A stretch of 34,649 bases of DNA from a virus. The stretch spans positions 1 through 34,649 of IMG/VR virus record IMGVR_UViG_3300044630_003130; one strand, 5' to 3'. This document shows positions 1-32,400 of the stretch, one piece after another. Made by a program: the position numbers and the translations under genes. The notes beneath the pieces were generated by a model. That model searched no databases and was not told where the DNA came from. It saw only the letters and a program-made list of their open reading frames with translations. Within the stretch, counting starts at the first letter, position 1. Each line of letters starts with the position of its first letter.

Positions 1-517
1 ACAACAAATGGCATTTGGTGATTATACCAAATATGAAATTTTTTCTATTGAGACTGATGGTAATATAATATTTTTAGATTCAGACATTGTTGTATTAGGA
101 AATATTGATTATCTTATTGATTTTAAAGAATCTTTTGGTGCTGTAAGAGAATTATTTATTGACCAATATAATACCGGTGTTATGGTAATTGGAAATAAAT
201 ATTTAAATCCAAAAATAACAGAAGATTTAATTAATTTAACAAACATTTATGGTATTACAGAACACTTGGATCAAGACATAATAAATAATTATTTTACTGA
301 TGTTATTATAGCAATTCCAATAGAATATAATTATCTTAAAATATACTCAAAACAAATTTTTCAAAACACAGGACTTCCAGATTATATTAAAGTGATTCAC
401 TATATTGTTAAAAAACCTTGGCAACAAAAACCATTGGTAATTTTAGAAGAAGGAACTTTATGGACCGAAAGATACTGGTTTGAGTATTATTCAAAAGTTT
501 TAAAGTTAAAATTATAA
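1..517 (+). CDS. GT8-family glycosyltransferase, C-terminal part (cut by window edge)
   Basis: The visible product carries the hallmark of glycosyltransferase family 8: a segment reading IIFLDSDIVVLGNID, in which D-S-D is the DxD motif that binds the metal and nucleotide-sugar, followed by a typical acceptor-side region (DQYNTGVMVIGN, and later HLDQDIINNYF). These retaining enzymes move a hexose or hexuronic acid from a UDP-sugar. An in-frame ATG lies at position 8, but the frame is open to the left edge and the Rossmann half that normally precedes the DxD motif is missing, so the gene almost certainly begins outside the window. Its stop overlaps the next start (TAATG), so it is translationally coupled to the heptosyltransferase-like gene. 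Family assignment is firm; the sugar and acceptor are unknown. Confidence 0.85.
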   Translation, partial: QQMAFGDYTKYEIFSIETDGNIIFLDSDIVVLGNIDYLIDFKESFGAVRELFIDQYNTGVMVIGNKYLNPKITEDLINLTNIYGITEHLDQDIINNYFTDVIIAIPIEYNYLKIYSKQIFQNTGLPDYIKVIHYIVKKPWQQKPLVILEEGTLWTERYWFEYYSKVLKLKL

Positions 518-1425
518 TGGTTAAAAGACAATACGGACAACACGAACTACTTGAGTATGTTGAAAGGGATAAAGATACTCAAACATTAGAAGGAAAGGAA
601 ATTTTAATGCACTTTGATTCTTTTTGTCTTGGCGACACAATTTGTTTTTCAGCATTTATTGATGCTTTTCTTGATTTTCATAAACCAAAAAAAGTTATTA
701 TATCAACATTTTTCCCACACCTTTTCCAATCAACAGATGATAGATATGAATTTATTAACGCAAACCAAAAATTAAAATTAACAATTGATAAGTTACTTGA
801 TGTTGGTTATGATAAGAATAGTTTGGATGATACAAAAGGTGGTATGATGTATGCCGCAAAAAGAACAATGTTATTACCACAAGAAACAAAACCAGGAAAG
901 TGTCCAGTTATTCCCTACGAAAGAAAAGTAATCCCAAATAAAATAGCAATTGCTCCAGAATCATTAAAGAAAATTGCACAATGGAATTTCTTTGGTAATT
1001 ATGGTTGGCAACAACTTGTAAATGAAATTGTAAATTCCGGATTTGTGGTTTCAAATGTTTCATATGAAAATACAATGAGTTTAAAAAATGTAACCGGTTT
1101 TCACGGACACGATGATATTCGTGTTGCATTAAATGAAATTTTATCATCACGAGTATTTGTTGGTTTATCTTCTGGACTTGCCTGGCTTGCTTGGGCATAT
1201 AATGTTCCAGTTGTTATGATTTCAGGGTTTACAAAAGAACATAATGAGTTTGATTGTTTTAGAGTGATAAACAAATTTTCCTGTAATGGGTGTTTTAACT
1301 TATTTCAAAATATACAATCAACTTGTCCATTATTTTTGGGGACTAATAGAGAAAACGAATGTCATAAAACAATAACACCAAAAATGATTATTGACAAAAT
1401 AAATGAAGCACTTAACTTTAATTAA
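517..1425 (+). CDS. GT9-like protein O-heptosyltransferase (TibC/Aah-type)
   Basis: The protein has 302 residues. The N-terminal part contains a GT9-style G-D-T loop (FCLGDTICFSAF, residues 36-47). The C-terminal half contains FVGLSSGLAWLAWA (214-227), the donor-binding element of ADP-heptose transferases. After it comes a cysteine set, C256-x2-C259, C270 and C282 (plus C247). This resembles the four-cysteine metal-binding segment of the bacterial autotransporter heptosyltransferases TibC and Aah, which add heptose to Ser/Thr of repeat adhesins. A plain LPS heptosyltransferase would normally lack this cluster. The gene overlaps the upstream GT8 by one base and is followed 5 bases later by another GT9-like gene. 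The likely acceptor is a Ser/Thr-rich phage fibre protein, but that and the use of ADP-heptose are inference. Confidence 0.72.
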   Translation: MVKRQYGQHELLEYVERDKDTQTLEGKEILMHFDSFCLGDTICFSAFIDAFLDFHKPKKVIISTFFPHLFQSTDDRYEFINANQKLKLTIDKLLDVGYDKNSLDDTKGGMMYAAKRTMLLPQETKPGKCPVIPYERKVIPNKIAIAPESLKKIAQWNFFGNYGWQQLVNEIVNSGFVVSNVSYENTMSLKNVTGFHGHDDIRVALNEILSSRVFVGLSSGLAWLAWAYNVPVVMISGFTKEHNEFDCFRVINKFSCNGCFNLFQNIQSTCPLFLGTNRENECHKTITPKMIIDKINEALNFN

Positions 1426-1430
1426 AAATT

Positions 1431-2312
1431 ATGGAAAAAAAATATAGTATATTCCACATAGAAGGTGGTTTAGGAAAACATGTCTTAGCAACTGCTGTTG
1501 CAAGATGTATCAAAAATAATCACCCGGATAGAGAACTAATTGTTGTCTGTGCTTATCCAGAAATTTATCTTAATTTAGATTTTGTTGGTCGTGTGTATAG
1601 ACTGGGAAATACACCTTATTTCTATGACGATTATATAAATGAAAAAGATAGTTTGATTTTTAAACACGAACCTTATTTTACTGAGGATCACATTCATAAA
1701 AGATTACCACTAATCCAAAACTGGTGTAAACTATTTAATCTTGAGTATAATGGTGAAAACCCAACACTTAATTTTAATTTAAGACAACAACAAGTTGGTG
1801 TTAATAAATGGCAAAGACAAAAACCGGTTATGGTTATCCAAACAAATGGTGGACCGTTAAATGAACAACCATACCCATATTCCTGGACAAGAGATATTCC
1901 AATTGATGTCGCACAACAAATTGTAAATTCATTTTCAAATTATTACCATATAATTCAAATTTGTAGACACGAAGCAAATGCACTAAAAGGGGTTGAGGTT
2001 GTAAAAGACTCAATGTCAAATATGGAATTATTTTCACTTCTTTTGTTTTCACAAAAAAGATTATTAATTGATTCTTGTTTGCAACATGCGGCAGCAGCTC
2101 TTGGTCTACAATCAACCGTTCTTTGGATTGGTACGTCACCAAAAGTTTTTGGATACAATATCCATAATAATATTGTAGCACAACTACCAACTACCGTAAA
2201 ACTTCCAGATAGTTATTTGTTTGATTATAATTTTAATGGAATGGTTCACGAGTGCCCACTATTTGATACAAACATTTTTGATACAAACGAAATAATTGAA
2301 ACTTTAAAATAA
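1431..2312 (+). CDS. GT9/heptosyltransferase-like glycosyltransferase
   Basis: This 293-residue protein has a GT-B-like architecture. Residues 11-21 (EGGLGKHVLAT) form the N-terminal glycine loop seen in GT9-like enzymes. A long alpha/beta region follows, ending near residues 210-232 in RLLIDSCLQHAAAALGLQ and STVLW, the usual GT9 pattern of a donor-site helix after a conserved Asp/Ser and then a strand. Unlike the previous gene it lacks the CxxC cluster, so it is a diverged relative rather than a simple duplicate. The start follows AAAATTATG with no Shine-Dalgarno sequence. Its position between the TibC-like enzyme and a sulfotransferase suggests that it extends or alters the same glycan. The fold call is reasonable; the substrate is unknown. 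Confidence 0.65.
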   Translation: MEKKYSIFHIEGGLGKHVLATAVARCIKNNHPDRELIVVCAYPEIYLNLDFVGRVYRLGNTPYFYDDYINEKDSLIFKHEPYFTEDHIHKRLPLIQNWCKLFNLEYNGENPTLNFNLRQQQVGVNKWQRQKPVMVIQTNGGPLNEQPYPYSWTRDIPIDVAQQIVNSFSNYYHIIQICRHEANALKGVEVVKDSMSNMELFSLLLFSQKRLLIDSCLQHAAAALGLQSTVLWIGTSPKVFGYNIHNNIVAQLPTTVKLPDSYLFDYNFNGMVHECPLFDTNIFDTNEIIETLK

Positions 2313-2318
2313 AAAACT

Positions 2319-3137
2319 ATGGCAAAAAAAATATTTTTTCAGAGCTCATTACCAAGAGCTGGCTCTACATTACTACAAAACGTAATGGGACAAAATCCAG
2401 AATTTTATGTAACACCAACATCTGGAGTTTTAGAATTGGTATATGCGGCAAGAGCAAACTACACATCATCACCAGAGTTTAAGGCTCAAGACCAAAATTT
2501 AATGAAACAAGGTTTTTTAAACTTTTGTAATCAAGGGATTAATGGGTTTTTTGATGGTGTAACTGATAAACCATATGTTTTAGATAAAAGTAGAGGTTGG
2601 GGTGTGCATTATGGATTTTTAAATTCATTTTACCCAAATCCAAAAGTAATTTGTATGGTTAGGGATTTAAGAGGAATTTTTGCCTCAATGGAAAAGAACT
2701 TTAGAAAAAATCAACATATGGATTCTGGAATTGTAAACCACGCTCAAATGCAAGGAACAACAACAGAAAAAAGAATTGATGTATGGGCTCAGTCACAACC
2801 GGTGGGTCTTGCAATTGAAAGATTATATCAAATTTTTAAAGAAGGTAATAATCAAAAAATGTTATTTGTTAAATTTGAGGATTTTTCTTCAAATCCAAAA
2901 AAAGAAATGGAAAGGATTTATAATTATTTAGAATTACCATATTATGAACACGACTTTAATAACGTCCAACAAATAACACAAGAAGATGATTCAATTTATG
3001 GTATATATGGTGATCATAAAATAAAAAGTAAAATAGAACCATTAAAACCAGATTATAAAGATATTTTAGGTGTTAATCCTTGTAATTGGATTAAATCAAA
3101 TTATAAATGGTTTTATGATCAATTTGGGTATTTTTAA
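2319..3137 (+). CDS. PAPS-dependent sulfotransferase
   Basis: This 272-residue protein belongs to the sulfotransferase superfamily. Residues 11-19 (LPRAGSTLL) form the 5'-phosphosulfate-binding loop near the N-terminus. VRDLRGIFAS (114-123) matches the 3'-phosphate-binding R-D-x-R-x-x-x-x-S motif. The C-terminal MLFVKFEDFSSNP is the typical strand-helix region ('l.v.YEdL...P'). Such enzymes move sulfate from PAPS to a hydroxyl on a sugar, protein or small molecule. The start follows AAAAAACTATGG. The gene is followed 2 bases later by an adenylylsulfate kinase, the enzyme that makes PAPS, so donor and transferase are encoded together. The acceptor is probably a glycan made by the neighbouring transferases; that is inference. 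Confidence 0.88.
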   Translation: MAKKIFFQSSLPRAGSTLLQNVMGQNPEFYVTPTSGVLELVYAARANYTSSPEFKAQDQNLMKQGFLNFCNQGINGFFDGVTDKPYVLDKSRGWGVHYGFLNSFYPNPKVICMVRDLRGIFASMEKNFRKNQHMDSGIVNHAQMQGTTTEKRIDVWAQSQPVGLAIERLYQIFKEGNNQKMLFVKFEDFSSNPKKEMERIYNYLELPYYEHDFNNVQQITQEDDSIYGIYGDHKIKSKIEPLKPDYKDILGVNPCNWIKSNYKWFYDQFGYF

Positions 3138-3139
3138 TT

Positions 3140-3595
3140 ATGAAAGAAAAGAAAATTTATTGGTTTACAGGACAACCGGGAGCTGGAAAAACCGTACTAT
3201 CATTAAAATTAAAAGATTATTTAGAACAAGAATATGGACAAGAAGTATTCCATATTGATGGTGATGAATTACGTCTTTTATTTAAAAATATAAATTATGG
3301 TAGAGAAGGTCGTGAAGAAAACATAAAACGAGCTCAAGATATTGCTAAATTTATTCACGCACAAGGATATGATGTTGTTGTTAGTTTAGTTGCACCATAT
3401 AAAGAATTAAGAGATAAATTTAAAGAAGAATTAAAATCTGGTATTGTTGAAATTTATGTTCACACAACAAACATTAGAGGTAGAGAGAATTTTCATACAG
3501 GCGAATACGTTGGACCATCAGAAAATTATATTGATATTGACACAACAGATATTGAACCAGAAGAATCACTAAATGAATTAATTAGTAAATTATGA
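3140..3595 (+). CDS. cysC: Adenylylsulfate (APS) kinase, compact form
   Basis: The protein phosphorylates adenylylsulfate to PAPS, the universal sulfate donor. Visible motifs are the Walker A loop GQPGAGKT (11-18), DGDELR (40-45), the NYGREGREENIKRAQ segment (52-66, equivalent to the family's G-F-S-x-x-D-R-x-x-N-I-R-R), VSLVAPYKELRD (81-92), and a C-terminal NFHTGEYVGPSENY region (117-130) equivalent to the family's F-T-G-x-x-x-P-Y-E-P-P. At 151 residues it is clearly shorter than the roughly 200 of cellular CysC; the shortening lies in the lid region between the last two motifs. The stop and the next start overlap (ATGA). A kinase acting on another substrate cannot be excluded, but the adjacent sulfotransferase and DUF2061 gene favour APS. 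Confidence 0.85.
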   Translation: MKEKKIYWFTGQPGAGKTVLSLKLKDYLEQEYGQEVFHIDGDELRLLFKNINYGREGREENIKRAQDIAKFIHAQGYDVVVSLVAPYKELRDKFKEELKSGIVEIYVHTTNIRGRENFHTGEYVGPSENYIDIDTTDIEPEESLNELISKL

Positions 3596-4056
3596 ATTGG
3601 GAAGTAAAAAATTATGGTGGATACCCAACAACAAATGAAAGTAAAAAGTATGCAATTTTTATTGGTAGATTCCAACCACCACATTTTGGACATTTGGAAT
3701 TGTTTGAGCAAAAATTAAATCAAGGTATTCCAGTTTTAATTATGGTTAGAGATATTGAACCAGACGAAAAAAATCCTTTTACAACAGAACAAACAGTAAC
3801 CCTATTGGAAAAATACTATTCAAATAAAAATTTTGATGTAAAGATAATGATTATTCCAGATATTGAGTCGGTAAACTTTGGTCGTGGTGTGGGATATGAA
3901 ATTAATGAATTTATTCCACCAAAAGAAATCGGTGGAATATCGGCAACAGGAATTAGAAATTCAATTAAAAATGGTGACGACTATTGGAAAAAAATGATTG
4001 ATGAGTCAATCCAAGAAGATGTTATAAACTATTTAAATTATGAAAACAGAGAGTAA
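3592..4056 (+). CDS. HxGH-family nucleotidyltransferase (NMN adenylyltransferase-like)
   Basis: This 154-residue protein has the two signatures of the cytidylyltransferase-like superfamily: GRFQPPHFGH (25-34), with the HxGH ATP-binding motif, and ISATGIR (116-122), the second phosphate-binding motif. ENPFT-like KNPFTTEQ (60-67) resembles archaeal-type NMN adenylyltransferases (NadM), so NAD synthesis is one candidate job. It overlaps the APS kinase by four bases and the next gene by 17. That placement raises the alternative that it activates a sugar- or sulfate-related precursor for the surrounding pathway. It lacks the extra domains of classical ATP sulfurylase. Superfamily is certain; substrate is open. 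Confidence 0.75.
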   Translation: MNWEVKNYGGYPTTNESKKYAIFIGRFQPPHFGHLELFEQKLNQGIPVLIMVRDIEPDEKNPFTTEQTVTLLEKYYSNKNFDVKIMIIPDIESVNFGRGVGYEINEFIPPKEIGGISATGIRNSIKNGDDYWKKMIDESIQEDVINYLNYENRE

Positions 4057-4480
4057 AACATATCAAATTAGGTATAATACCGTATCAAAAGACGATACTG
4101 AAAGGTGGAGATTAATTGAGAATGGTAATGAAATTTTAGTTTCAGATATTATAATTGATGGTCATACACAAACAACAAAAGACTGGATGCCTGAAATAAA
4201 TGATTATAAATGGCATATAAGTTGTGTTGGTCATTGTGTTGTTAAAAACAACATTGCATACATAACAACAATTAAAGAAGAATCTGTTGTTGTAAGACAT
4301 ATCTTAAAAACATTAACTTATAGATTTTTTGCAACAATAACAACAATCACAACAGCACTTCTTTTAGGTGCGTCAATTGAAGTCTCATCTTTAATTGGTT
4401 TAGGTGAGTTATTAATAAAACCTTTAATTTATTTTTTCCACGAACGAGTTTGGTATAAATTTATAAAAGTTAAAAAATAG
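4040..4480 (+). CDS. Small two-domain protein ending in a DUF2061 membrane domain
   Basis: The protein has 146 residues. Residues 6-80 are soluble and beta-rich (QIRYNTVSKDDTERWRLIEN, then KWHISCVGHCVV). Residues 86-140 match the DUF2061 membrane domain: R-H-x-L-K-T-x-T-Y-R near the start, two hydrophobic segments (about 95-112 and 118-133) and an ERVWYK end. From family knowledge, DUF2061 genes are often found beside sulfate-activation genes such as cysC, which fits the neighbourhood here; the molecular role is not established. Its start lies 17 bases inside the nucleotidyltransferase gene. It ends the first operon; a promoter-like box follows it. It is probably an inner-membrane protein in the infected cell. 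Confidence 0.7.
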   Translation: MKTESKTYQIRYNTVSKDDTERWRLIENGNEILVSDIIIDGHTQTTKDWMPEINDYKWHISCVGHCVVKNNIAYITTIKEESVVVRHILKTLTYRFFATITTITTALLLGASIEVSSLIGLGELLIKPLIYFFHERVWYKFIKVKK

Positions 4481-4492
4481 TTTGATTTGATG

Positions 4493-4499
4493 TATTTAT
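4493..4499 (+). promoter_or_regulatory. Putative phage promoter box TATTTAT
   Basis: TATTTAT followed by TGTAAAA lies 13 bases before the 4513 start, just after the first operon ends. It is one of a family of same-orientation boxes in this window. Calling it a promoter is inference from position and recurrence. Confidence 0.55.
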
Positions 4500-4512
4500 T
4501 GTAAAAGTGTGA

Positions 4513-5013
4513 ATGAGTCTTACAATTACAATAAATAGTGTTTCATATGACGGTGAATTAGCAACAATCCTTTTTAAACCAGATATTTCTGATTTATCTA
4601 TAAATCTTGGGATTGTTACATTGCCTTATACATTTGACCCTTCTTTATTAACGCCACAAAGAGAAATTTATGGTAGTTATACAATTTTGGTTCAAGGTTC
4701 TAATTGTTCAAAAATATTAAATGTACCAAGACCCACACCTACACCAACACCTACTATTACACCAACAAAAACACCTACACCAACACCTACTATTACACCA
4801 ACTCCAACGCCAACGTTTGATCCGTGTAAAGTACCAACTCCAACGCCAACTGTAACACCAACCAATACAACAACACCAACTAACACACCAACACCAAGTG
4901 TTACTTGTACAAATCCGTGTGGCTGTCCTGAACCTAGTCGTACGCCAAAACCTACTAAAACACCTAAACCAACACCAATTGTTACTTGTACAAACCCTTG
5001 TGGGTGTAATTAA
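4513..5013 (+). CDS. Pro/Thr-rich (mucin-like) surface or fibre-associated protein
   Basis: The protein has 166 residues. Residues 1-72 form a short beta-rich N-terminal domain (starting [14 protein letters not shown]). From residue 73 on it is almost entirely a Pro-Thr linker (PTPTPTIT units). Two copies of a cysteine motif, CTNPCGC, occur, one at the very C-terminus and one about 30 residues earlier. No signal peptide is visible. The N-terminal domain resembles that of the next, much larger protein, so the two are probably related virion proteins; this one could be a truncated or minor paralogue. The dense threonines are good candidates for O-glycosylation by the surrounding glycosyltransferases. 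Function otherwise unknown. Confidence 0.65.
4729..4905 (+). repeat. Low-complexity Pro-Thr coding repeat
   Basis: Imperfect repeats of acaccaacacctactatt-type units encode PTPTPTIT. A similar tract recurs at about 5238-5297 and 5509-5545, and a shorter one inside the sheath gene at about 30343-30426. Confidence 0.8.
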
Positions 5014-5018
5014 AAAAT

Positions 5019-8000
5019 ATGTCATTACAAATAGAAATTACGGGCGTTACTGGAACTGGACCATTTGAGGTTCAAGTTTGTGATATAACAAACACAACTT
5101 GTGTTGTTGTTACTAGTTCAACAAATATTCCACCAACATACACATTTGATGTACCACCACCTTTTGATGGTGTTAGTTCAATAATTGTAAAAATAATTGA
5201 CTCAACCGGTTGTGAAACTTTTTATCCATACTATTGTCCACCGACACCAACTCCTACACCAACACCAACATTAACACCAACTCCTACACCTACATTTCTT
5301 TGTTATTGTATTACGGTAAATAACCCAACAACAAATGATGGTTATTTTGATTATATTGATTGTGATGGAAATTTACAAACTTCAGTATTTGTACCAAGTG
5401 GTATAACATATTATACTTGTGGGATTAATCCGACAAATCAAATAAATGTTACAACAATTACTGGTGGATTTTGTGATTCAAATTACTCGTGTCCACAACC
5501 TTCTTGTACGCCAACCCCAACCCCAACTCCAACACCAAATCCATATGTTGGTACTGGTGAATGGAAGGGTGATGTAAGAACAACACAAATATCAACTGGG
5601 TCAAGTGGGTCAAATCAATTTAAATTACCATTACAATCAAATGGTACTTATAACTTTATTGTTGATTGGGGAGATACAACAACAGACACAATTACAGTTT
5701 GGAATGATCCATTAACAACACATACATATGCTGCTCCTGGTGATTACACAGTTGAGATTTCTGGAATATGTGAAGGTTTCAGATTTAATAATACTGGAGA
5801 TAGAAAAAAATTATTAAACATTCAAAAGTGGGGTAATTTAAGATTAGGTAATGACGGTGATTATTTTTATGGATGCTCAAACTTAACATTAAATACAGTT
5901 ATTGATACACCAAATCTTGCAACAACAACGAATTTAACTCAGATGTTTAGGGAGTGTTCATCACTTACATCAATAAATTTATCAAATTTTTGGGACACAT
6001 CACAAGTTACTGATATGTCTTTTATGTTTGCAATTTGTCCATTATTTAATTCAAACATATCATCTTGGAATACATCATTAGTTACAAATATGATTGGGAT
6101 GTTTTTTTATGGTTCGCAATTTAATCAAGACATTTCTTATTGGGACACATCACAAGTTAATGATATGTCATTTATGTTTTCTGATGCAACAAATTTTAAT
6201 CAACCAATAACCGGTTGGTCCGTTTCGGCTGTAACAAATATGTCAGGAATGTTTTCTGATGCAACATCATTTGATCAAGATTTAGGTTCTTGGGATGTGT
6301 CAAATGTTTATTTTATGACCGATATGTTCCAAGATGTTACATTATCAACATTTAATTATGATTCAATTTTATGTGGGTGGTCAAACTTACCATATGTACA
6401 ACCAAATGTTACTTTTGATGGTGGAAATTCACAATACTCAACATCATCAATTCCTTGTATCGGAATACTTATTTCACCACCAAATAGTTGGACAATATTA
6501 GATGGTGGTTTATCAAGATTTGAATCAACTTGGGATACAACATTAACATCGGGTGGTTCATCGTTAGCAAACCAAATTCAATTACCTTTAAATTCTTCTG
6601 GTGTTTACAATTTCTTTATTGAGTGGGGTGATGGAAATTCTGATACAATAACCGTATGGAATGATCCGGCAACATTACACACATATACAACACCAGGAGT
6701 ATACACAATAAAAATATACGGTCAACTTGAGGGGTGGAGATTTAATAATACTGGAGATAGAAACAAATTATTAAGTATCCAAAGTTGGGGTGGAGACTTT
6801 AGATTGGGTAATCTCCAAAGTTATTTTAGAGGTTGTCAAAATTTAGATTTGCCTAGTGTTAGTGATTCCCTAAATTTAGGTGGTACAACTAATTTGAGTG
6901 AATTATTTAGAGGTTGTACAAATCTAACCACTATAAATAATATTGGTTTTTGGAACACGTCAAACGTAATTGACATGTCTGATACTTTTAGTACTTGTCC
7001 AAACTTTAATAGTCCTGGAATTGAAAATTGGGATGTATCAAATGTTAATAACTTTAACGCAATGTTTATCTTATGTGGGTCTTTTAACCAACCAATTGGA
7101 GCTTGGGATACATCTTCTGTATTGAATATGAATAATATGTTCGTAAATGCAATATCATTTAATCAACCAATTGGAACTTGGAATACATCTTCAGTTACAA
7201 GTATGATTAATATGTTCTTTGGTGCATCATCATTTAACCAACCAATTGGAACTTGGGACACATCATCTGTTACAGATATGAGTAGTATGTTTGGGAACAC
7301 AACTTTTAATCAACCAATTGGAACTTGGAATACATCATCTGTTATAAGTATGGGCACTATGTTTAATGGTGCATCATCATTTAATCAACCAATTGGAACT
7401 TGGGATACATCTTCTGTTATAAGTATGGGCACTATGTTTCAAAATGCAACATCATTTAATCAACCAATTGGAACTTGGGATACATCTTCTGTTACAAGTA
7501 TGAATACTATGTTCTTTGGTGCATCATCATTTAACCAACCAATTGGAACTTGGGATGTGTCAAATGTTGTATTTATGAGTGGTATGTTAGATAATTGTGG
7601 AATGAATACCACAAATTATGATTTAACATTATGTGGTTGGTCTTCACTTCCTTCATTACAAACTGGTGTTTTTTTAGGTGCAACAGGGTTATTTTATTCA
7701 CCAGCAGGTCTTACTTGCAGGAACATATTAACTGGAACATATTCTTGGGTAATAACTGGTGATAATCCATTAACACCATTTGTATCAACTTGGGATACAA
7801 ATCTACCTGGTGTTTCAGCCACAAACCAAGTTCAGTTACCATTGGAAATAAGTGGTGTTTATAACTTTGTTGTAGATTGGGGTGATGGTTCACCATTTGA
7901 TACAATTACAGTGTGGAATGATCCTGCAACGCTACATACTTATGGTGCGCTTGGGATTTATACAATAACAATAACTGGTCAAATTGAAGGTTTTGTGTTT

Positions 8001-9035
8001 TTCAACACTGGTGATAAAAATAAACTATTATCAATTACAAGTTGGGGTCCAGATTTTAGATTGGGTAATAGTGGAAGTTATTTCTATGGTTGTGGTAATT
8101 TAGATTTAAGTGGTGTTTCAGATATTTTAGATTTAACCGGTACATCTATTTTAGATTCAGCATTTCAAAACTGTGGTACAACAAATGTTAATAATATGAA
8201 TTTGTGGGATACATCAAATGTCACAAGTATGATCAGTACATTTGAGTCGGCTTCAAATTTTAATGAAAATATATCTTCTTGGGACACATCATCCGTTACA
8301 ACTATGTTTAATGCTTTCAAAGGCGCAACAAACTTTAACCAACCAATTGGAACTTGGGATACGTCTTCTGTTTTAAGTATGAATAGTATGTTCCAGAGTG
8401 CATTATCATTTAACCAGCCAATCGGAACTTGGGATACATCTTCTGTTACAACTATGAATGGTATGTTCCAAAATGCGACATCATTCAACCAACCAATTGG
8501 AACTTGGGTTACATCTTCTGTTACAAATATGAGTACTATGTTTAATGGTGCAACAAGCTTTAACCAACCAATTGGGACTTGGGACACATCTTTAGTTACA
8601 ATTACGTCTGGTATGTTCCAAAATGCGACATCATTCAATCAACCAATTGGGACATGGGTTACATCTTCTGTTGTAAATATGGCTAGTATGTTTAGACTAG
8701 CAACATCATTCAATCAACCAATTGGGACATGGGTCACATCTTCCGTTACAAATATGAATAGTATGTTTAATGGTGCAACATCATTTAATCAGGATTTAGG
8801 TACTTGGGATGTCACATCATTAACAACTGCCACACTTATGTTTGCAACTGTAACACTTTCAACCCCAAATTATAATTCGTTACTTAATGGTTGGGCGTCA
8901 TATGGTGGTGCATTACAATCTGGTGTTCCATTTAATGCTGGTAATTCTGTATATACAATTGCAACAGCAGGTGTGTCAAGAGGGTTTTTAACAACAACAA
9001 AATTGTGGACAATCACAGATGGTGGTGGAATTTAA
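5019..9035 (+). CDS. Large modular adhesin: Pro/Thr linkers plus three PKD-like/BspA-like (DUF285) modules
   Basis: This 1338-residue protein is built of repeats. Residues 1-72 form an N-terminal domain like that of the previous gene. Pro-Thr linkers at about 74-93 and 164-176 flank a small Cys-containing domain. Three homologous modules follow, beginning near residues 190, 510 and 928. Each starts with a PKD-like beta domain (a YNF-x-x-x-W-G-D motif, then DTITVWND and HTY) and an RLGN-x-x-x-YF-x-GC segment. Each then runs into 25-residue BspA-like repeats of the form [20 protein letters not shown]. DUF285 repeats are known from bacterial surface lipoproteins and adhesins. In a phage structural region the likely role is host binding (tail fibre or decoration). 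No signal peptide or transmembrane anchor is seen, which fits a virion protein better than a host-exported one. Confidence 0.8.
7083..7604 (+). repeat. 75-bp tandem repeats (second DUF285 array)
   Basis: Seven consecutive units beginning TTTAA(C/T)CAACCAATTGGA encode 25-residue FNQPIG(T/A)W repeats. All are 75 bp except one of 72 bp starting at 7233. The units are close to identical at the DNA level. Confidence 0.9.
8334..8858 (+). repeat. 75-bp tandem repeats (third DUF285 array)
   Basis: Seven 75-bp units start at 8334, 8409, 8484, 8559, 8634, 8709 and 8784. Six encode FNQPIGTW; the last is degenerate (FNQDLGTW). Some units share long identical runs with those at 7083-7604. Confidence 0.9.
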
Positions 9036-9062
9036 TATTTAATTTTTCATATCATTTTTTAT

Positions 9063-9084
9063 CATTTTATAAAACTATAAAATG
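9063..9084 (+). promoter_or_regulatory. Perfect inverted repeat containing a start codon
   Basis: CATTTTAT (9063-9070), a six-base loop (AAAACT) and ATAAAATG (9077-9084) can form an 8-bp hairpin. The ATG of the next gene (9082-9084) is inside the right arm. It may modulate initiation, but in such AT-rich DNA it could be fortuitous. Confidence 0.35.
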
Positions 9085-10326
9085 AATACAATCTTTGTTC
9101 AAATAGCATCCTTTAGAGACCCCCAACTTATTCCAACATTAGAAGATATGATTGCAAACGCAAAGTATCCAGAAAACTTGCGAATAGGAATTTGTAATCA
9201 GTATAACACAGAAGATGAATTTAATTTAGATAAATTCAGAGACGATGATAGATTTAGAATTGATAATGTCTTAGACACAGAATCAAAAGGTGTTTGTTGG
9301 GCAAGACATATGGTACAACAAAGATATAGCGGAGAAACTTATACATTACAGATTGATTCTCATATGCGTTTTGAAAAAGATTGGGATAAAACTTTAATTA
9401 AAATGTTAAAGGATTTACAAAAGAAAGGTTATAAAAAACCATTACTTACTGGTTATGTATCTTCTTTTGATCCAGACAATGACCCAAAAGGAAGAGTAAC
9501 GGAACCTTGGAGAATGGCTTTTGATAGATTTACACCGGAAGGTTGTGTTTTCTTTTTACCAGAAACAATACCGGGATGGAAAGATTTAAAGGAACCAATA
9601 ACTGCCAGATTTTATTCGGCACATTTTTGTTTTACATTAGGTGAGTTTTCAATTGAGGTTCAACACGATCCAGAATATTATTTTCACGGAGAAGAAATCT
9701 CAATTGCTGTTAGAGCATACACATATGGTTATGATTTATTTCACCCACATAAAGTTGTTATTTGGCATGAATATACAAGAAAGAATAGAACAAAACATTG
9801 GGATGTTGATTCAGAGTGGTATAAGAAAAATGAGTCATCACATAAAAGAAATAGAGAGTTATTGGGTGTTGATGGTTTGGTATTTTCTGGTGATAGTTCA
9901 TTATATTTTGGAACCGAAAGAACAATTAAAGATTATGAAAAGTATTCCGGAATCCTTTTTGAGAAAAGAGCCGTACAACAATATACAATAGATAAACAAT
10001 ATCCACCAAATCCATACGATTATAAAACAGAAGAAGAATGGAGAGATAGTTTCCTTTCAATATTCAAACATTGTATTGACCTTTCATTTGATATGGTTAA
10101 AGAAACTGATTATGATTTTTGGGTTGTTGCATTTCATAATGAAAAAGATGAAACATTATTTAGAAAAGACGCGGACCCAAATGAAATTGCAATGATGAAA
10201 AGGGATCCGGATAGATATTGTAAAATATGGAGAGAATTTAATACAACGGAAAAACCGAAGTATTGGGTGGTTTGGCCACATAGTACATCAAAAGGTTGGT
10301 GTGATAGAATAACTGGAAATTTATGA
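9082..10326 (+). CDS. GT60-like N-acetylglucosaminyltransferase (Skp1/mucin-type)
   Basis: This 414-residue protein matches the eukaryote-like GT60 group of GlcNAc transferases. It starts IFVQIASFRDPQLIPTLEDM (4-23), the family's 'iFVsIaSYRDpel..Tl..l' opening. CWARHMVQQRY (72-82) and LQIDSHMRFEKDWD (89-102) carry the modified DxD metal site (D92-S-H94). HGEE (202-205) and VIWHEY (226-231) are later conserved positions. Characterised GT60 enzymes are soluble and attach alpha-GlcNAc to hydroxyproline of Skp1 or to Thr of mucins. Downstream of a Pro/Thr-rich adhesin, that linker is an obvious candidate acceptor (inference). The gene is coupled to the next by an ATGA overlap. Confidence 0.78.
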   Translation: MNTIFVQIASFRDPQLIPTLEDMIANAKYPENLRIGICNQYNTEDEFNLDKFRDDDRFRIDNVLDTESKGVCWARHMVQQRYSGETYTLQIDSHMRFEKDWDKTLIKMLKDLQKKGYKKPLLTGYVSSFDPDNDPKGRVTEPWRMAFDRFTPEGCVFFLPETIPGWKDLKEPITARFYSAHFCFTLGEFSIEVQHDPEYYFHGEEISIAVRAYTYGYDLFHPHKVVIWHEYTRKNRTKHWDVDSEWYKKNESSHKRNRELLGVDGLVFSGDSSLYFGTERTIKDYEKYSGILFEKRAVQQYTIDKQYPPNPYDYKTEEEWRDSFLSIFKHCIDLSFDMVKETDYDFWVVAFHNEKDETLFRKDADPNEIAMMKRDPDRYCKIWREFNTTEKPKYWVVWPHSTSKGWCDRITGNL

Positions 10327-11027
10327 TAAAATTTAAAGATATTAAAATTGCTGATATTGGATTTTACATTAACCTAGACAAAAGAAAAGATAGGGAAGAA
10401 AAAATTGAGTCACAACTAAAAGAATTTAATTTTTCTGGTGTTGAGAGATTTTCGGCATTTAATGAATATGATGCAAATACTCTTAATTGTAAAAAAAGTC
10501 ACATAATTTTAATGAAAAAGTTACTTGATAGTAATTTTGAAACTTTATTGGTTTTGGAGGATGATTGTAAATTTTTAGATATTTTAAAGAATCAAGGTGA
10601 AAAAGTTTTTAATGATATTAATAATACTGATTGGGATTTATTTTGGTTAGGGTGTAGAAACAGAAAAGAACCAATAATATATAAAAATAATTGTTACCAA
10701 GTTTCATCAGTTTCATATTCACAATCTTATTTAATAAAACGAAATATGTGTGAATTTATTGTGAATAATTTTGATAATGAAAATTTTTTTAAACAACCTG
10801 TAACACCTGATGAATTATTAACATTATCACCATATGGTGCTGATGTTGTTTTAAATTCAGAAAAATATAATTTTTATAATTTAGAACAACCATTAAATTC
10901 TTTACCAACAATTTTTAAACATCTATGTTATAAGAAACCACTAACAACACAATACGCTTCATATAGTGATATATGGAACTCAGAAATTAATTACGAAGAT
11001 TATATAAAAAAAGGTTTCCCAAAATAA
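10323..11027 (+). CDS. Glycosyltransferase family 25
   Basis: The 234-residue product shows the family 25 pattern: FYINLDKRKDREEKI near the N-terminus (14-28; INLD-x-R-x-x-R is the hallmark), CKKSHIILMKKLL (56-68), and LLVLEDD (75-81), whose acidic cluster plays the DxD role. Family 25 enzymes include LPS galactosyltransferases and collagen hydroxylysine galactosyltransferases. The first codons overlap the stop of the GT60-like gene by four bases, so the two are translationally coupled and probably act on the same acceptor. The C-terminal SLPTIFKH stretch is also typical of the family. Sugar specificity cannot be read from the sequence. Confidence 0.85.
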   Translation: MIKFKDIKIADIGFYINLDKRKDREEKIESQLKEFNFSGVERFSAFNEYDANTLNCKKSHIILMKKLLDSNFETLLVLEDDCKFLDILKNQGEKVFNDINNTDWDLFWLGCRNRKEPIIYKNNCYQVSSVSYSQSYLIKRNMCEFIVNNFDNENFFKQPVTPDELLTLSPYGADVVLNSEKYNFYNLEQPLNSLPTIFKHLCYKKPLTTQYASYSDIWNSEINYEDYIKKGFPK

Positions 11028-11037
11028 AAAAATAATT

Positions 11038-11667
11038 ATGAAATTTGAAAATAAAATAAGTAAAAAATCAAACTTAATTGAAAATGATAGTTTGTCCATT
11101 TATAATAACTGGGCTGCCCAGCAAAACTGGAATGCTTTTGAGGTTTTCCATAATTTTTTAGAAAAAGTCAAACCAAAAAGAATAATTGAGATTGGGACTT
11201 CTCTTGGTGGTTTTACATCTTTTTTAAACTATACTTGTAAAAAATTAAATTTAGATTGTCACATTTTATCATATGATATTATAACACATCATTGGTATGA
11301 TGAAATGAGAAAAAATGGTATTGATTTGAGGATTGAAAATATATTTTACAATAATTACACTACAACAAAAAAAGAAGTTATTGATTTTATCCAGAAAGAT
11401 GGTTTGACATTAATATTGTGCGACGGTGGTGATAAAATAAAAGAGTTCAACCTACTTTCAAAATATATGAAAAAAGGTGATTTTATAATGACACACGATT
11501 ATGTTGAAACCAAAGAAAAATTTGATAATGAAATCTATTTAAAAATTTGGAATTGGCATGAAGTTTCCGAATCCGATTTACAAAAAGCATGTGAAGAAAA
11601 TGGTTTAATATCATATGATAAAGAAATATTTGATAATGTTGTTTGGGTTTGTAAAATTAAAAAATGA
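11038..11667 (+). CDS. Class I SAM-dependent methyltransferase (CmcI/Methyltransf_24-like)
   Basis: The protein has 209 residues. RIIEIGTSLGGFTSFL (48-63) is the SAM-binding glycine-rich loop with its acidic start. SYD (78-80) ends the second strand. LILCDGGD (125-132) and GDFIMTHDY are the later core strands and the metal/SAM-side motif of CmcI-like O-methyltransferases. In glycan clusters such proteins often O-methylate sugars; here it lies between GT25 and a two-domain transferase, so sugar methylation is the best guess. The next gene overlaps by ATGA. The class is clear, the substrate is not. Confidence 0.8.
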   Translation: MKFENKISKKSNLIENDSLSIYNNWAAQQNWNAFEVFHNFLEKVKPKRIIEIGTSLGGFTSFLNYTCKKLNLDCHILSYDIITHHWYDEMRKNGIDLRIENIFYNNYTTTKKEVIDFIQKDGLTLILCDGGDKIKEFNLLSKYMKKGDFIMTHDYVETKEKFDNEIYLKIWNWHEVSESDLQKACEENGLISYDKEIFDNVVWVCKIKK

Positions 11668-13334
11668 ATAATTTAACATTAGTAACAGGTTTATGGGATA
11701 TAGGTAGGGGAGAACTATCTGACGGATGGTCAAGATCTTTTGACCATTATCTTGAGAATTTTTCAAAACTATTAAAGGTTGAGAACAATATGATAATTTT
11801 TGGTGACCAAAGATTAAAAGAGTTTGTTTTCAAATATAGGACAGAAGAAAATACACAATTTATTTTAAGAGATTTAAATTGGTTTAAAAATAATGAGTTT
11901 TATGATTTAATCCAAAAAGTTAGAACAAATTCTTCTTGGTATAATCAAGTTGGCTGGTTAAGAGAATCAACACAGGCAAGACTTGAGATGTATAATCCTC
12001 TTGTTATGTCAAAGATGTTTTTATTACACGACGCAAAACTTTTAGATAAGTTTAATTCAAAATTATTATACTGGATTGATGCCGGACTTGTAAATACAGT
12101 TCATCCAGGATATTTTACACACGACAAAGTTTTAGATAAGGTACCAAAGTTATTTAACAAATTTACATTTGTTTGTTTTCCATATAATGCTGACACAGAA
12201 GTTCACGGATTTAAATATGATAAGATGTGTGAACTTGCAAATAAGAAAACAGAAGTTGTTGCTCGTGGAGGATTTTTTGGTGGAGATAAAGATTCAATAG
12301 CTCAGATGAATGTTCTTTATTATAACTTGATGCTGGAAACATTAAAATCTGGTTTAATGGGAACCGAAGAATCTTTATTCACAATCTTACTTTATCAACA
12401 TCCATCAATTATTGATTATGTTGAAATTGAATCAAATGGTTTACTATATAAGTTTTTTGAAGATTTAAAAAATAACCAAGTATTAATAAAATCACAAGGA
12501 AAAAAGATTGTTCAAAATTATAATGGTGATGTTGGTCTTTATGTAATTACATTTAACTCACCAAAACAATTTGAAACCTTAATTAAATCAATGTTAGATT
12601 ATGATTCAGATTTTATTCATAAAACAAAAAAGTTTCTTCTTGACAACTCAACGGATTTAACAACAACGCCTTTATATCTAAAACTATGTGAGGAATATAA
12701 ATTTGAGCATATTAAAAAGAATAACATTGGTATTACCGGTGGTAGACAATTTATTGCAGAACATTTTAATGACCAAGAAAATCTTTCACATTACTACTTC
12801 TACGAAGATGATATGAATTTTTACAACGGAAAAGATATTACTTGTAAAAATGGTTTTATAAGAAAGATTGATAATTTATATCAAAAAAGTTTAGAAATAA
12901 TAAAAAAGGAAAATTTTGATTTTTTAAAATTAAATTTCACAGAGTTTTATGGTTCACACAACAAACAATGGTCGTGGTATAATGTAAGTCAAGAATTTAG
13001 AAAAAGTCATTGGCCAAACAATCAAACGTTGCCAAAACAAGGTCTTGACCCAAATTCGCCAAACTTAGAATTTAAACATATACAATCACATAAAGGACTT
13101 CCTTATGTATCCGGAGAAATATATTTATCCAATTGGCCAATTCTTATGACAAAAGAAGGAAACTATAATTGTTATATTAAAACAAAGTTCCAACATCCAT
13201 ATGAACAGACCTTGATGTCAAATTGTTATCAAGAAACAATTAAAGGAAATGTTAATCCAGGATTACTTCTTGCAACACCAACAGAACACAATCGTTTTGA
13301 ATTTTATGATGGATCTTTAAGAAAAGAATGTTAA
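11664..13334 (+). CDS. HtrL/YibB-type protein fused to a GT2-like glycosyltransferase
   Basis: The 556-residue product has two parts. Residues 1 to about 280 match the HtrL/YibB (WlaTC) family. Features are LVTGLWDIGRG near the N-terminus (6-16), NNMIIFGDQRLKEFV, the central YWIDAG (136-141), and a C-terminal ARGGFFGG and GTEES region. Residues 291-556 are a second nucleotide-sugar-transferase-like domain starting GLYVITFNSPKQFETLIKS. It contains YFYEDDMNF (378-386), where EDD is the likely metal site as in GT2 enzymes. YibB-like proteins are usually single-domain. The gene is coupled to the methyltransferase by ATGA and closes the second glycan operon. A promoter box follows directly after its stop. 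Confidence 0.75.
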   Translation: MNNLTLVTGLWDIGRGELSDGWSRSFDHYLENFSKLLKVENNMIIFGDQRLKEFVFKYRTEENTQFILRDLNWFKNNEFYDLIQKVRTNSSWYNQVGWLRESTQARLEMYNPLVMSKMFLLHDAKLLDKFNSKLLYWIDAGLVNTVHPGYFTHDKVLDKVPKLFNKFTFVCFPYNADTEVHGFKYDKMCELANKKTEVVARGGFFGGDKDSIAQMNVLYYNLMLETLKSGLMGTEESLFTILLYQHPSIIDYVEIESNGLLYKFFEDLKNNQVLIKSQGKKIVQNYNGDVGLYVITFNSPKQFETLIKSMLDYDSDFIHKTKKFLLDNSTDLTTTPLYLKLCEEYKFEHIKKNNIGITGGRQFIAEHFNDQENLSHYYFYEDDMNFYNGKDITCKNGFIRKIDNLYQKSLEIIKKENFDFLKLNFTEFYGSHNKQWSWYNVSQEFRKSHWPNNQTLPKQGLDPNSPNLEFKHIQSHKGLPYVSGEIYLSNWPILMTKEGNYNCYIKTKFQHPYEQTLMSNCYQETIKGNVNPGLLLATPTEHNRFEFYDGSLRKEC

Positions 13335-13360: not shown

Positions 13361-13825
13361 ATGGAATTTTTTATCCGAAAAAACTCAACATTACCATTAT
13401 TAAAAATACAAGTAGTAAAAGACGGTCGTAGTGACTACAATCATTTTATGGAATATATTGAAGAGTCTGCAATCTTCTTTTCAATGATTGATGTTGAAAC
13501 CGGTATTCCAAAGATAGTTACAAGACCTGCCGGGTTTGTTGCAAAAACCGGAATGGATCCAAATGCGCCAACAGAATATTATGTGTATTACCAGTTTTCA
13601 AATTTTGACACAAGAAAACCAGGAAGATTTGAGGGTCAATTTTTATTTAGAAATGACGAAGGAACTTTAATACTTCCAATAAGAGAAAAATTATTTATTA
13701 ATATTCAAGATAGTTTTATAGCTGATGACCTTCCATATGAAACTTGTTATGTGTCAGAATTTCCTTGTTGTTTAAAAACACCAGTAATACCAGTTACAAC
13801 CACAACAACAACCTCACCAATTTAA
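13361..13825 (+). CDS. Small putative virion protein with Thr-rich tail
   Basis: I do not recognise the family. The 154-residue product looks beta-rich. It starts MEFFIRKNSTLPLLKIQVVK, contains MIDVETGIPKIVTRPAGFVA and a YYVYYQF strand, then FEGQFLF and LILPIREKLFI. That order resembles N-terminal domains of phage baseplate or fibre-attachment proteins (a parallel, not a match). It ends in CCLKTPVIPV followed by six threonines and SPI, a short mucin-like tail recalling the Pro/Thr linkers upstream. It has its own promoter-like box, stands just before the two beta-roll fibres, and may connect them to the baseplate. No catalytic motif or membrane segment is visible. Confidence 0.55.
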   Translation: MEFFIRKNSTLPLLKIQVVKDGRSDYNHFMEYIEESAIFFSMIDVETGIPKIVTRPAGFVAKTGMDPNAPTEYYVYYQFSNFDTRKPGRFEGQFLFRNDEGTLILPIREKLFINIQDSFIADDLPYETCYVSEFPCCLKTPVIPVTTTTTTSPI

Positions 13826-29445: not shown

Positions 29446-32400
29446 ATGGCAACAAACAGTAAAGTATTTGTATCACCAGGTGTCTATACTTCGGAAGTTG
29501 ATTTGAGTTTTGTAGCACAAAGTGTTGGTGTAACCACATTGGGTATTGCGGGGGAGACATTAAAAGGCCCTGCTTTTGAACCAATCTTTGTAAAAAGCTA
29601 CGACGAATTTCAGAGCTACTTCGGCGGTACTTCACCAGAAAAATTTGTGAATACTCAAATCCCAAAGTACGAAGCTGCGTATATCGCAAAATCTTACTTA
29701 CAACAATCAAGTCAATTATTTGTTACAAGAATATTGGGACTATCAGGTTATGATGCTGGCCCGTCTTGGTCAATTGTAACACAAGCGAATGTAGACCCAA
29801 CAACTATTGGTGTATGGTGTTTAGACCCAACGGTTGTTAATTGTGAACCAGCTTGTAATCAACCATATGAAATAACATTTGCTGTTGATTTTACAGGTTG
29901 TACAAGTGGCATTCAATCAATTTCATTTCCAGATCTTGATCAATTTCCAGATGAAATAAAAAACATTTTAACAGAACAATACGAAACATTTAATGGTTCT
30001 TTAAGTACACTTGATGATAATATCAAATCATTAGTTTTTAGTGTTTTAAATTCTAGTAATATTAATGCGGAAAACGAAACAATTAGTTATTTTGGTTCAG
30101 TAGATGGTGCTGATTATAGCGGTTTAACAAATGCCGGTTTTACAGCGCAAACTAATGTATTTCAAGTGCCTGCGGTTCCGTTAGATCAAACAGATTTAAC
30201 ATCACCATTTAATGATCCTTGGTATTATGCATTATTTGATAATAATGGTGGTGGCGCTTATAGTGGTTTTTCATTTTGGTCAATTGTAAGTGGTTTAACT
30301 TTTATTAACCCTGTTGTTACAAGTACTACAACATTACCAATAACACCTACACCGACACCAACTCCGGTAAACCCTTGTGTTACACCACAACCGTTTGTGT
30401 CACCAACACCGACACCAACTCCGGTAAATGTTGATTGTTATTCTGGACAAGTAGTTGGTAGAATTTATTACTATACAGGAACATCATATACTGATTATGA
30501 TAATTTAGTGGTTGCAACATTGAGATCTAGAGGTATTGCGAATTATTCAGATTCAAATAACCCTGTTTATGAAATTAGTGATATTACTAAAGTAACATTA
30601 AATATGAGTGGTGAATATTCTGGTGTTGCGAAAAATCCATATCTACCATTTGTTATTAATGCAACAAATGATTTAGGTACTGATTTCACTTTTGAAACAT
30701 CATTTAGTATTTCTGATGCTCAATACATTTCAAAAGTATTTGGGTCAAGTAATTTTGGTAAACCAAGAAATGTTAACCCATTGTTCTTAGAAGAAAGATT
30801 CCAATCATTATTAAATTATGCTTGGAGAAAAGGTTATATTAGAGGTTTATCATCACAAATTGTAGCGCTTGATTCAGCACAAAGTGGTGAAAGTGATTCT
30901 ATTGGGTGGTATTTAGATAGATACCAATCACCAGCATCACCTTGGGTTGTATCTGAATTAAGAGGTTCTAAAGTATTTAACTTATTTAAGTTTTATACAA
31001 TATCTGATGGTAATTCAGCAAACACAGAAGTTAAACTTTCAATTGCTGATATTTCATTTGCTAATCAAACATTTACTGTTTTAGTTAGAGATTATTATGA
31101 CACCGATTCAAACCCAATTGTAATTGAGAAATTTACAAATTGTTCTATGGATCCTTCACAAAATAATTTTATTGCTAAGAAAATTGGTACATTAGATGGT
31201 GAATATGAATTGAAATCTAAATACGTTATGGTTGAAATGAATGAGGATGCACCAGTTGATGCACTTCCTTGTGGGTTTGATGGTTATGTAATTAGACAAT
31301 ATGATGGTGTTGTATCTCCATTCCCAATTTATAAAACTAAATATGATTTCCCTGGTGAAATTATTTATAATCCACCATTTGGATTCTCAACAGGAGCTGA
31401 TGACGCTTTAATATCTGGTGGAGATAATATTAGAAGAACATATTTAGGTCTTGGTTCATTCTGGGGATTTGATTCAAGTTTCTTTGAATACAAAGGAAAA
31501 AGAAATCCAATTTCTACTTGTGATATAGATGGATTTGATTGGAATACAAAAACAAGAGGATACCATATGGATAGAAACGCTAGTGGTATTACAATTAGTG
31601 GTCCATTTACAACAAGTGGTACACCAAGATTCTATGTTGGTAATGCACCATTTAGTTCTGAACCGACTCTTGATACTAACCCATATTACAGATTATTTGC
31701 TCGTAAGTTTACTTTGTTTGTTCAAGGTGGATTTGACGGATGGGACATTTATAGAGAATATAGAACTAACGGTGATAGATATACATTAGGTCGTCAAGGA
31801 TTCCTTAATGGAGCTTGTCCTACTGATAGATACCCAAATGCTAGTGGATGGGGTGCATTTAAACAAATTGCAATTGGTGATGGAACAAGAGATTGGGGTA
31901 ACACTGACTACTACGCTTATTTATTAGGTATTAGATCATTTGCAAACCCAGAGGCTGTAAATATCAATGTGTTTGTAACACCAGGTATTGATGTTCAAAA
32001 CAATTCTGATTTAGTTGAAAATACAATTGATATGATTGAAAATGAAAGAGCTGACTCATTGTATATTACAACATTACCGGACTATAACTTATTCTTACCA
32101 ACAACAACTGGAACCGATGGTTTAATTTACCCACAAGAAGCTGTTGACATATTGGAAGAAACAGGAATTGATTCTAACTATACTGCAACATATTACCCTT
32201 GGGTATTAACAAGAGATAGTGTAAACAATACACAAATCTATATTCCAGCAACAGCTGAAGTTACAAGAAACTTAGCACTTACTGATAATATAGCATTCCC
32301 TTGGTTCGCAGCTGCTGGTTATACTCGTGGTATTGTTAATTCAATTAAAGCTCGTAAAAAGTTGACACAAGAAGATAGAGATACTTTATATATTGGTAGA

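Follow-up and report, generated by a model that had tools for sequence, protein, structure and literature searches.

The stretch of DNA analysed here, referred to as the window, is a whole IMG/VR fragment of 34,649 nucleotides (34.6 kb; IMGVR_UViG_3300044630_003130) from a T4-like myophage. Gene families were assigned by Pfam, NCBIfam and PDB searches, which identified T4-like genes for a tail sheath, a tail tube, a neck protein, a family B DNA polymerase and a UvsW-like helicase, while searches of the window for RNA families and tRNAs yielded none. Its lineage is one of T4-like freshwater phages, and IMG/VR contains close relatives of the tail tube gene in the hundreds. The sheath is most similar to that of an uncultured huge phage and that of Mel-JY01, a phage of Microcystis (about 30% identity), and a close isolate is absent. 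Our subject is a gene for a glycosyltransferase of family GT60 (g10) and the genes around it, which an earlier note on this DNA had described as two tight operons flanking two proteins rich in Pro and Thr (PT-rich) and had interpreted as a system for O-glycosylation of the phage's own surface proteins. The arrangement was confirmed, in that neighbouring genes in both operons abut or overlap. The candidate acceptors and the second operon are as follows.

g8, 4513..5013, + strand: PT-rich protein with an N-terminal domain of ~73 aa and a PT tract; candidate acceptor
g9, 5019..9035, + strand: PT-rich stalk with PKD-like and DUF285 repeats (PF03382, E=2e-286); candidate acceptor
g10, 9082..10326, + strand: GT60 glycosyltransferase, core enzyme and predicted initiator of O-glycosylation (PF11397, E=7e-70)
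g11, 10323..11027, + strand: GT25 glycosyltransferase, accessory (PF01755, E=1e-7)
g12, 11038..11667, + strand: S-adenosylmethionine-dependent methyltransferase, rhamnosyl O-methyltransferase-like, accessory; weak matches (PF04989, E=3e-5; FtsJ, PF01728, E=6e-6)
g13, 11664..13334, + strand: YibB domain (HtrL_YibB, PF09612, E=2e-22) with a C-terminal half; core partner of GT60
g14, 13361..13825, + strand: small protein with the Thr-rich tail VTTTTTTSPI; possible further acceptor
g26, 29446..32793, + strand: tail sheath with inserted PT tracts (PF17482, E=1e-9); candidate virion acceptor

The GT60 enzyme and its candidate acceptors

The g10 protein scored 236.6 bits against PF11397, for which the curated cut-off is 21, and its metal-binding DxD/DxH motif (D92-S93-H94) was invariant among 26 homologues. 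The 29 best PDB entries for the AlphaFold model (predicted local distance difference test score, pLDDT, 91.6) were all polypeptide N-acetylgalactosamine (GalNAc) transferases, with Z scores of 19.3-22.3, and the next match was LARGE1 with a Z score of 16.6. Characterized enzymes of the GT60 family transfer N-acetylglucosamine (GlcNAc) onto hydroxyproline in Skp1 (PMC6939170) and onto Thr in the mucins of Trypanosoma cruzi, as assayed with KPPTTTTTTTTKPP (PMC3769586). Family and predicted fold thus agree that g10 most likely acts on a polypeptide, although likeness in fold is no proof. A prolyl hydroxylase partner, which would provide hydroxyproline as the acceptor, is unlikely since 18 of 19 metagenome records with GT60, and likewise the cultured phages XacN1 and RAS14, yielded no member of family PF13640, and Thr is therefore favoured as the acceptor.

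The PT character of the candidate acceptors was scored as the number of P-T/S/V steps (maximum 19) in the best 20-residue window, using 200 shuffles as control. Both g8 and g9, the latter of which directly precedes g10, reached 15/19, compared to shuffle maxima of 10 and 8, respectively. The tail sheath contains two PT stretches that had escaped the earlier note, and it scored 9 against a shuffle maximum of 7; a relative matches the PHROG tail sheath (E=1e-54). The codons in the tracts differ at the third, synonymous position, so that the tracts are not explained by simple DNA slippage, and the tract in g8 is retained in a homologue of 71% identity. Linkers of the type PTPTPTP are O-mannosylated in actinobacterial cellulases (PMC12757957).

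In near-complete genomes of relatives, the proteins with PT tracts are the tail sheath, two conserved proteins of the tail region, those that start with one of two recurrent domains of about 73 residues, and a few additional proteins from the same regions. In the window (29446-32793) and in two relatives (L507:541-3888 and L517:1488-4808), the tail sheath has about 1110 residues and a large insert that carries PT tracts; the matched sheath of Mel-JY01 is shorter, and the Mel-JY01 genome yielded no such tract. Two types of the 73-residue N-terminal domain recur at the head of PT proteins, one characterized by ILFKPD and the other by VTGTPPY..VCD, in the window (4513-4731 and 5019-5237) as well as in relatives (L504, L505, L511 and L516), and the VTGTPPY..VCD type is also present in free-standing open reading frames (ORFs) of 73-100 residues. 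One tail-region protein with a PT tract ends with a papain-like C1 peptidase domain (L512:1644-4517; PF00112, E=2e-6). PT-bearing proteins of relatives also contain SprB repeats (L511:2090-4033 and L513:2670-3719), which hints at hosts among the Bacteroidota.

Not all repeats rich in hydroxyl residues are plausible acceptors. The Ser/Thr-Gly-Gly repeats that the earlier note had considered as targets are indeed present in the fibre genes g15 and g16, where a unit of the STxxGGxxNT type is repeated about 9 and 15 times, respectively, but we take them to resemble the structural repeats of the YadA head rather than a mucin tract, and they were rejected as mucin-like acceptors.

Association of GT60 with YibB and Pro-Thr tracts

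We surveyed 80 GT60 loci, with flanks limited to 10 kb. A YibB gene was located beside GT60 in 78 of these and a homologue of g14, in many cases with T- or PT-rich extensions, was present in 77. The other enzymes were far less constant: genes for the GT8 of g1 type (10/80), GT25 (20/80), the g12 methyltransferase (17/80), the sulfotransferase, the adenosine 5'-phosphosulfate (APS) kinase and the TibC-like protein were each found in 10-28 of the 80 loci. The earlier description of g13 as a YibB-GT2 protein holds for the YibB domain; its C-terminal half had no match in Pfam or PDB, and since a profile search retrieved no related solved structure at E 0.01, the GT2 half is unconfirmed.

GT60 and PT tracts occur together. 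A stretch encoding PTPTPTP was identified in 32 of 33 GT60 records and the reversed pattern in none, whereas sulfotransferase-selected records without GT60 contained the tract in 4 of 22 cases, and all seven such records of at least 100 kb were devoid of it. Among 47 dereplicated loci, the ORF directly upstream of GT60 encodes such a tract in 31, as compared to a frequency of 56/631 in the other ORFs (p=4e-19, Fisher test). In the reverse test, GT60 was present in 10 of 40 records sampled by the PT tract alone versus 0 of 28 sampled by the reversed pattern (p=0.003), a control set that contains fewer large records. GT60-less records chosen by the tube gene often carry PT tracts, and since these are fragments from the same lineage, GT60 may be located outside the contig. 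The co-occurrence of the gene cluster with PT-rich proteins, which had been suggested as a check of the earlier interpretation, is thus borne out for GT60 and YibB but not for the sulfotransferase.

A second viral lineage is represented by isolates. A search of 50,697 records yielded matches to g10 in phages XacN1, RAS14 and CM1 only, with tail tubes of 26-28% identity to that of the window (28% for XacN1). All three contain P-S/T tracts (3/3), which were found in none (0/5) of the five RaK2-like relatives without GT60 nor in three other T4-like phages that were checked. The YibB partner is also present in XacN1 and RAS14, and the gene order in XacN1 is a baseplate wedge, the 3313-residue PT-bearing ORF325, GT9, YibB and GT60. 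According to the report on XacN1, the virion proteome includes at least two glycoproteins and the phage glycosyltransferases were suggested as their makers (PMC5852040). Among bacterial genomes, relatives of g10 were identified in four Planktothrix alone (35-37%), in which a PT-rich protein is not immediately adjacent. The Planktothrix relatives (L594, L595 and L597) directly follow a gene resembling one for a VWA-domain protein.

The first operon and other genes in the window

The first operon is located upstream of the PT genes and comprises seven genes.

g1, 2..517, + strand: GT8 glycosyltransferase, accessory (PF01501, E=5e-16)
g2, 517..1425, + strand: TibC-like (BAHT-related) candidate protein O-glycosyltransferase, accessory (TIGR04414, E=2e-35)
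g3, 1431..2312, + strand: putative GT9-like glycosyltransferase, partner of the sulfotransferase
g4, 2319..3137, + strand: sulfotransferase of the type that uses 3'-phosphoadenosine 5'-phosphosulfate (PAPS), accessory (PF13469, E=9e-21)
g5, 3140..3595, + strand: APS kinase-like P-loop kinase (PF01583, E=4e-21)
g6, 3592..4056, + strand: HIGH-type nucleotidyltransferase, similar to nicotinamide mononucleotide (NMN) adenylyltransferase (NMNAT)
g7, 4040..4480, + strand: DUF2061 membrane protein that travels with g5-g6 (PF09834, E=6e-14)

Family searches confirmed the earlier assignments of the GT8, sulfotransferase, APS kinase, nucleotidyltransferase and DUF2061 genes, as well as those of GT60, GT25 and the methyltransferase in the second operon. 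The N-terminus of g1 is cut by the contig end, and the remainder covers profile positions 87-251 of 253. The two genes previously described as GT9-like fared differently, since g2 is specifically TibC-like while g3 had no family match in the Pfam search. A sequence search with g2 retrieved TibC from PDB (E=8.5e-17), and the AlphaFold 2 model matched TibC best, with a Z score of 25.8 across 287 residues; the lipopolysaccharide (LPS) heptosyltransferases scored well below this, the next GT9 being at Z 18.9. In the alignment of homologues, D40, which corresponds to the catalytic Asp-110 of TibC, and W223 are invariant, and C256, C259, C270 and C282, conserved in the close subfamily, align with the iron-coordinating cysteines. 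Among the heptose-binding residues T226, K230, R286 and W305 of TibC, W305 alone is kept (W223 in g2), the others being unaligned in the g2 subfamily; the roles of the TibC residues in catalysis, iron coordination and ADP-heptose binding are from PMC4358343. Because three of these residues are not kept and the score of 122.4 bits against TIGR04414 is below the equivalog cut-off of 200 bits, we refer to g2 as BAHT-related rather than as BAHT.

The sulfotransferase g4 has weak PDB matches to tyrosylprotein sulfotransferase. Of 52 sulfotransferase loci that span 15 kb or more, 48 also contain a homologue of g3, and the sulfotransferase is mostly found in phages without GT60 or PT tracts. It was rejected as part of a PT-linked core, as 18 of the 22 sulfotransferase-selected records without GT60 were also without the tract. 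The APS kinase g5 (E=8e-14 to PDB entry 8a8h) has its homologue beside that of g6 in 39 of 40 loci, with DUF2061 (g7) in 33 of 40, and the pair occurs without a PF13469 or PF00685 sulfotransferase in 17 of 18 records tested. The g6 protein was closest to NMN adenylyltransferases in profile and PDB searches, and by our reading it has the GRFQPxHxGH signature of these enzymes rather than the motif of ATP sulfurylase. Given the NMNAT-like signature and the pairs without sulfotransferase, a PAPS-supply module formed by the kinase and the nucleotidyltransferase is not supported. Together, genes of the g5, g6 and g7 types (window 3140-4480; L518-L582) make up a trio that is conserved among phages and is found where sulfotransferases are absent.

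Two further observations concern the window at large. The late promoter TATAAATA was rejected as evidence of co-expression since there were 11 matches against 7.8 expected. The gene at 23143-25239 on the minus strand encodes a protein of 698 residues in which an HExxH stretch (AHEWVHDYQRD) precedes a complete superoxide dismutase of the Fe/Mn type (PF00081, E=6e-23; PF02777, E=4e-38), an unusual fusion for a superoxide dismutase in a phage.

A model for virion glycosylation and its relation to known systems

We suggest that Pro-Thr stalk proteins of the phage are most likely glycosylated by phage enzymes inside the host cytosol, with GT60 and YibB as the core. Phage proteins are both made and put together in the cytosol, beyond the reach of periplasmic host oligosaccharyltransferases, so that a soluble nucleotide-sugar enzyme such as GT60 would be needed. 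The g10 protein would add the first sugar, probably an alpha-linked GlcNAc or a similar UDP-sugar, to Thr in the PT tracts of virion or virion-associated stalk proteins, such as g8, g9, the insert in the tail sheath and perhaps g14, and g13 would extend or complete the glycan. The TibC-like g2, the GT8, the GT25, the methyltransferase and the sulfotransferase may represent a variable set that diversifies the glycan between phages or has targets elsewhere. It is by inference that we name the sugar, the residue that accepts it and a location of g8 and g9 in or on the virion, and the same applies to any benefit, for example shielding, altered adsorption or resistance of the stalks to proteases.

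Glycosylation of virion or other phage proteins by a GT60 core is supported by the enzyme family, the predicted fold, the linkage to PT tracts in two viral lineages and the published glycoproteins of XacN1, and we estimate its probability at roughly two in three. This retains the claim of the earlier note that the phage modifies its own proteins, with the exception of the fibre repeats as targets. Several observations weigh against it. There is no PT tract beside GT60 in 16 of the 47 loci, although several of these have one two or three genes away, and 30 of the 40 PT-sampled records are without GT60. Most GT60 records are from one lineage, and the counts are therefore not independent; many are also fragments. 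The distance between GT60 and the PT genes in XacN1 is about 10-14 kb or more, the glycoproteins of its virion may be other than the PT proteins, and there is a second glycosyltransferase, ORF328.

The explanation closest to ours is that GT60 and YibB modify the PT proteins while the first operon is an independent cassette for the host surface or a small molecule. This shares the GT60 core, so the two are not exclusive, and we consider it a serious contender at a little under even odds: the sulfotransferase is found in phages that have no GT60 and, for the most part, no PT tracts, and the kinase-nucleotidyltransferase pair is tight and seldom accompanied by a sulfotransferase, yet in the lineage of the window the PT genes follow immediately after the cassette and g2 is similar to an enzyme that O-glycosylates proteins. 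The main rival to glycosylation of phage proteins is remodelling of the host surface, whereby the enzymes would alter LPS, capsule or glycans during infection and thereby exclude competitors or tune the receptor. Loci for LPS or polysaccharides are the main known setting of the GT8, GT25, GT9-like and YibB families, sulfotransferase clusters exist without GT60 or PT tracts, and host remodelling has been proposed for clusters of glycosyltransferases with HIGH nucleotidyltransferases in jumbo phages (PMC7824862). Such remodelling is a better fit to parts of the first operon than to GT60, the conserved core enzyme, which is from a family known to use polypeptide acceptors and sits beside PT proteins; moreover, family searches of the window recognised no lysogeny genes, and the virions of XacN1 hold glycoproteins. 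As an account of the system we regard it as unlikely.

It is quite improbable that the PT tracts serve as nothing more than rigid linkers of the tail proteins and cluster with the enzymes through a shared fast-changing adsorption region. PT linkers are common spacers, and the many PT-sampled records without a detected GT60 would fit; nevertheless, the tracts are tracked by GT60 and not by the sulfotransferase, the linkage holds in two lineages, and the predicted fold of g10 is that of a polypeptide O-glycosyltransferase. Least credible, to the point of being very improbable, is modification of phage DNA bases. Family searches recognised no base-hypermodification gene in the window, which is a fragment, and none of its glycosyltransferase families is known to act on DNA. 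Such a role is known for other phage glycosyltransferases, as cited in PMC12619734.

Sulfation or methylation of virion glycans, as suggested in the earlier note, is rather doubtful. Sulfated glycans are speculative because the sulfotransferase is not linked to PT tracts and the APS pair is found without sulfotransferases, and methylated glycans because they rest on the weakly assigned g12. Only tentatively, and with the odds leaning against it, do we propose a widespread mucin-type O-glycosylation in phages, in which cytosolic GT60 enzymes would act on PT tracts in sheath and stalk proteins and swappable glycosyltransferase, methyl and sulfate cassettes would produce differing charged coats.

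Glycosylation of phage particles is known in few cases, and the rules for acceptors scarcely so. The literature collection that was searched yielded no phage paper linking GT60 with PT tracts. If the GT60 model is correct, an acceptor tract and a dedicated initiator would allow glycosylation of the virion to be predicted from sequence for hundreds of freshwater phages, with bearing on adsorption, protease resistance and recognition of the particle. The enzyme could also serve as a soluble bacterial tool for O-glycosylation of Pro-Thr linkers. The model is testable now, since the core pair or its GT60 is present in XacN1, RAS14 and CM1, all of which are cultured.

Among characterized systems, the alpha-GlcNAc-transferases of GT60, Gnt1 of Skp1 and the pp-alpha-GlcNAcT of T. 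cruzi mucins, are in the same Pfam family as g10 by a large margin and share its invariant DSH motif, and the T. cruzi mucins are rich in Thr and Pro like the candidate acceptors. Unlike these, the window is from a bacterial virus with no Golgi and no prolyl hydroxylase detectable by Pfam, and g10 has a C-terminal region beyond the matched GT-A fold. The mucin-type polypeptide GalNAc-transferases of GT27 provide the best matches to the g10 model, but at 10-15% identity this is likeness in fold and not membership. The g2 protein shares the fold, the catalytic Asp and the four-Cys iron-finger pattern with the BAHT enzymes TibC and Aah, but is below the family cut-off and shorter than TibC (302 versus 406 residues), the N-terminal part being missing. 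In mycobacteriophages, virion proteins are glycosylated by phage enzymes at the C-termini of capsid and tail tube proteins (Freeman et al. 2023, as cited in PMC12619734); phage-encoded glycosyltransferases are common to both, but the proposed system in the window combines GT60 with PT-tract proteins. XacN1 is a parallel in an isolate with reported virion glycoproteins: ORF334 is a GT60 enzyme 47% identical to g10 and ORF330 is the YibB partner, although its PT genes are not adjacent to GT60 and no sulfotransferase cassette like that of the window was found within about 15 kb of GT60.

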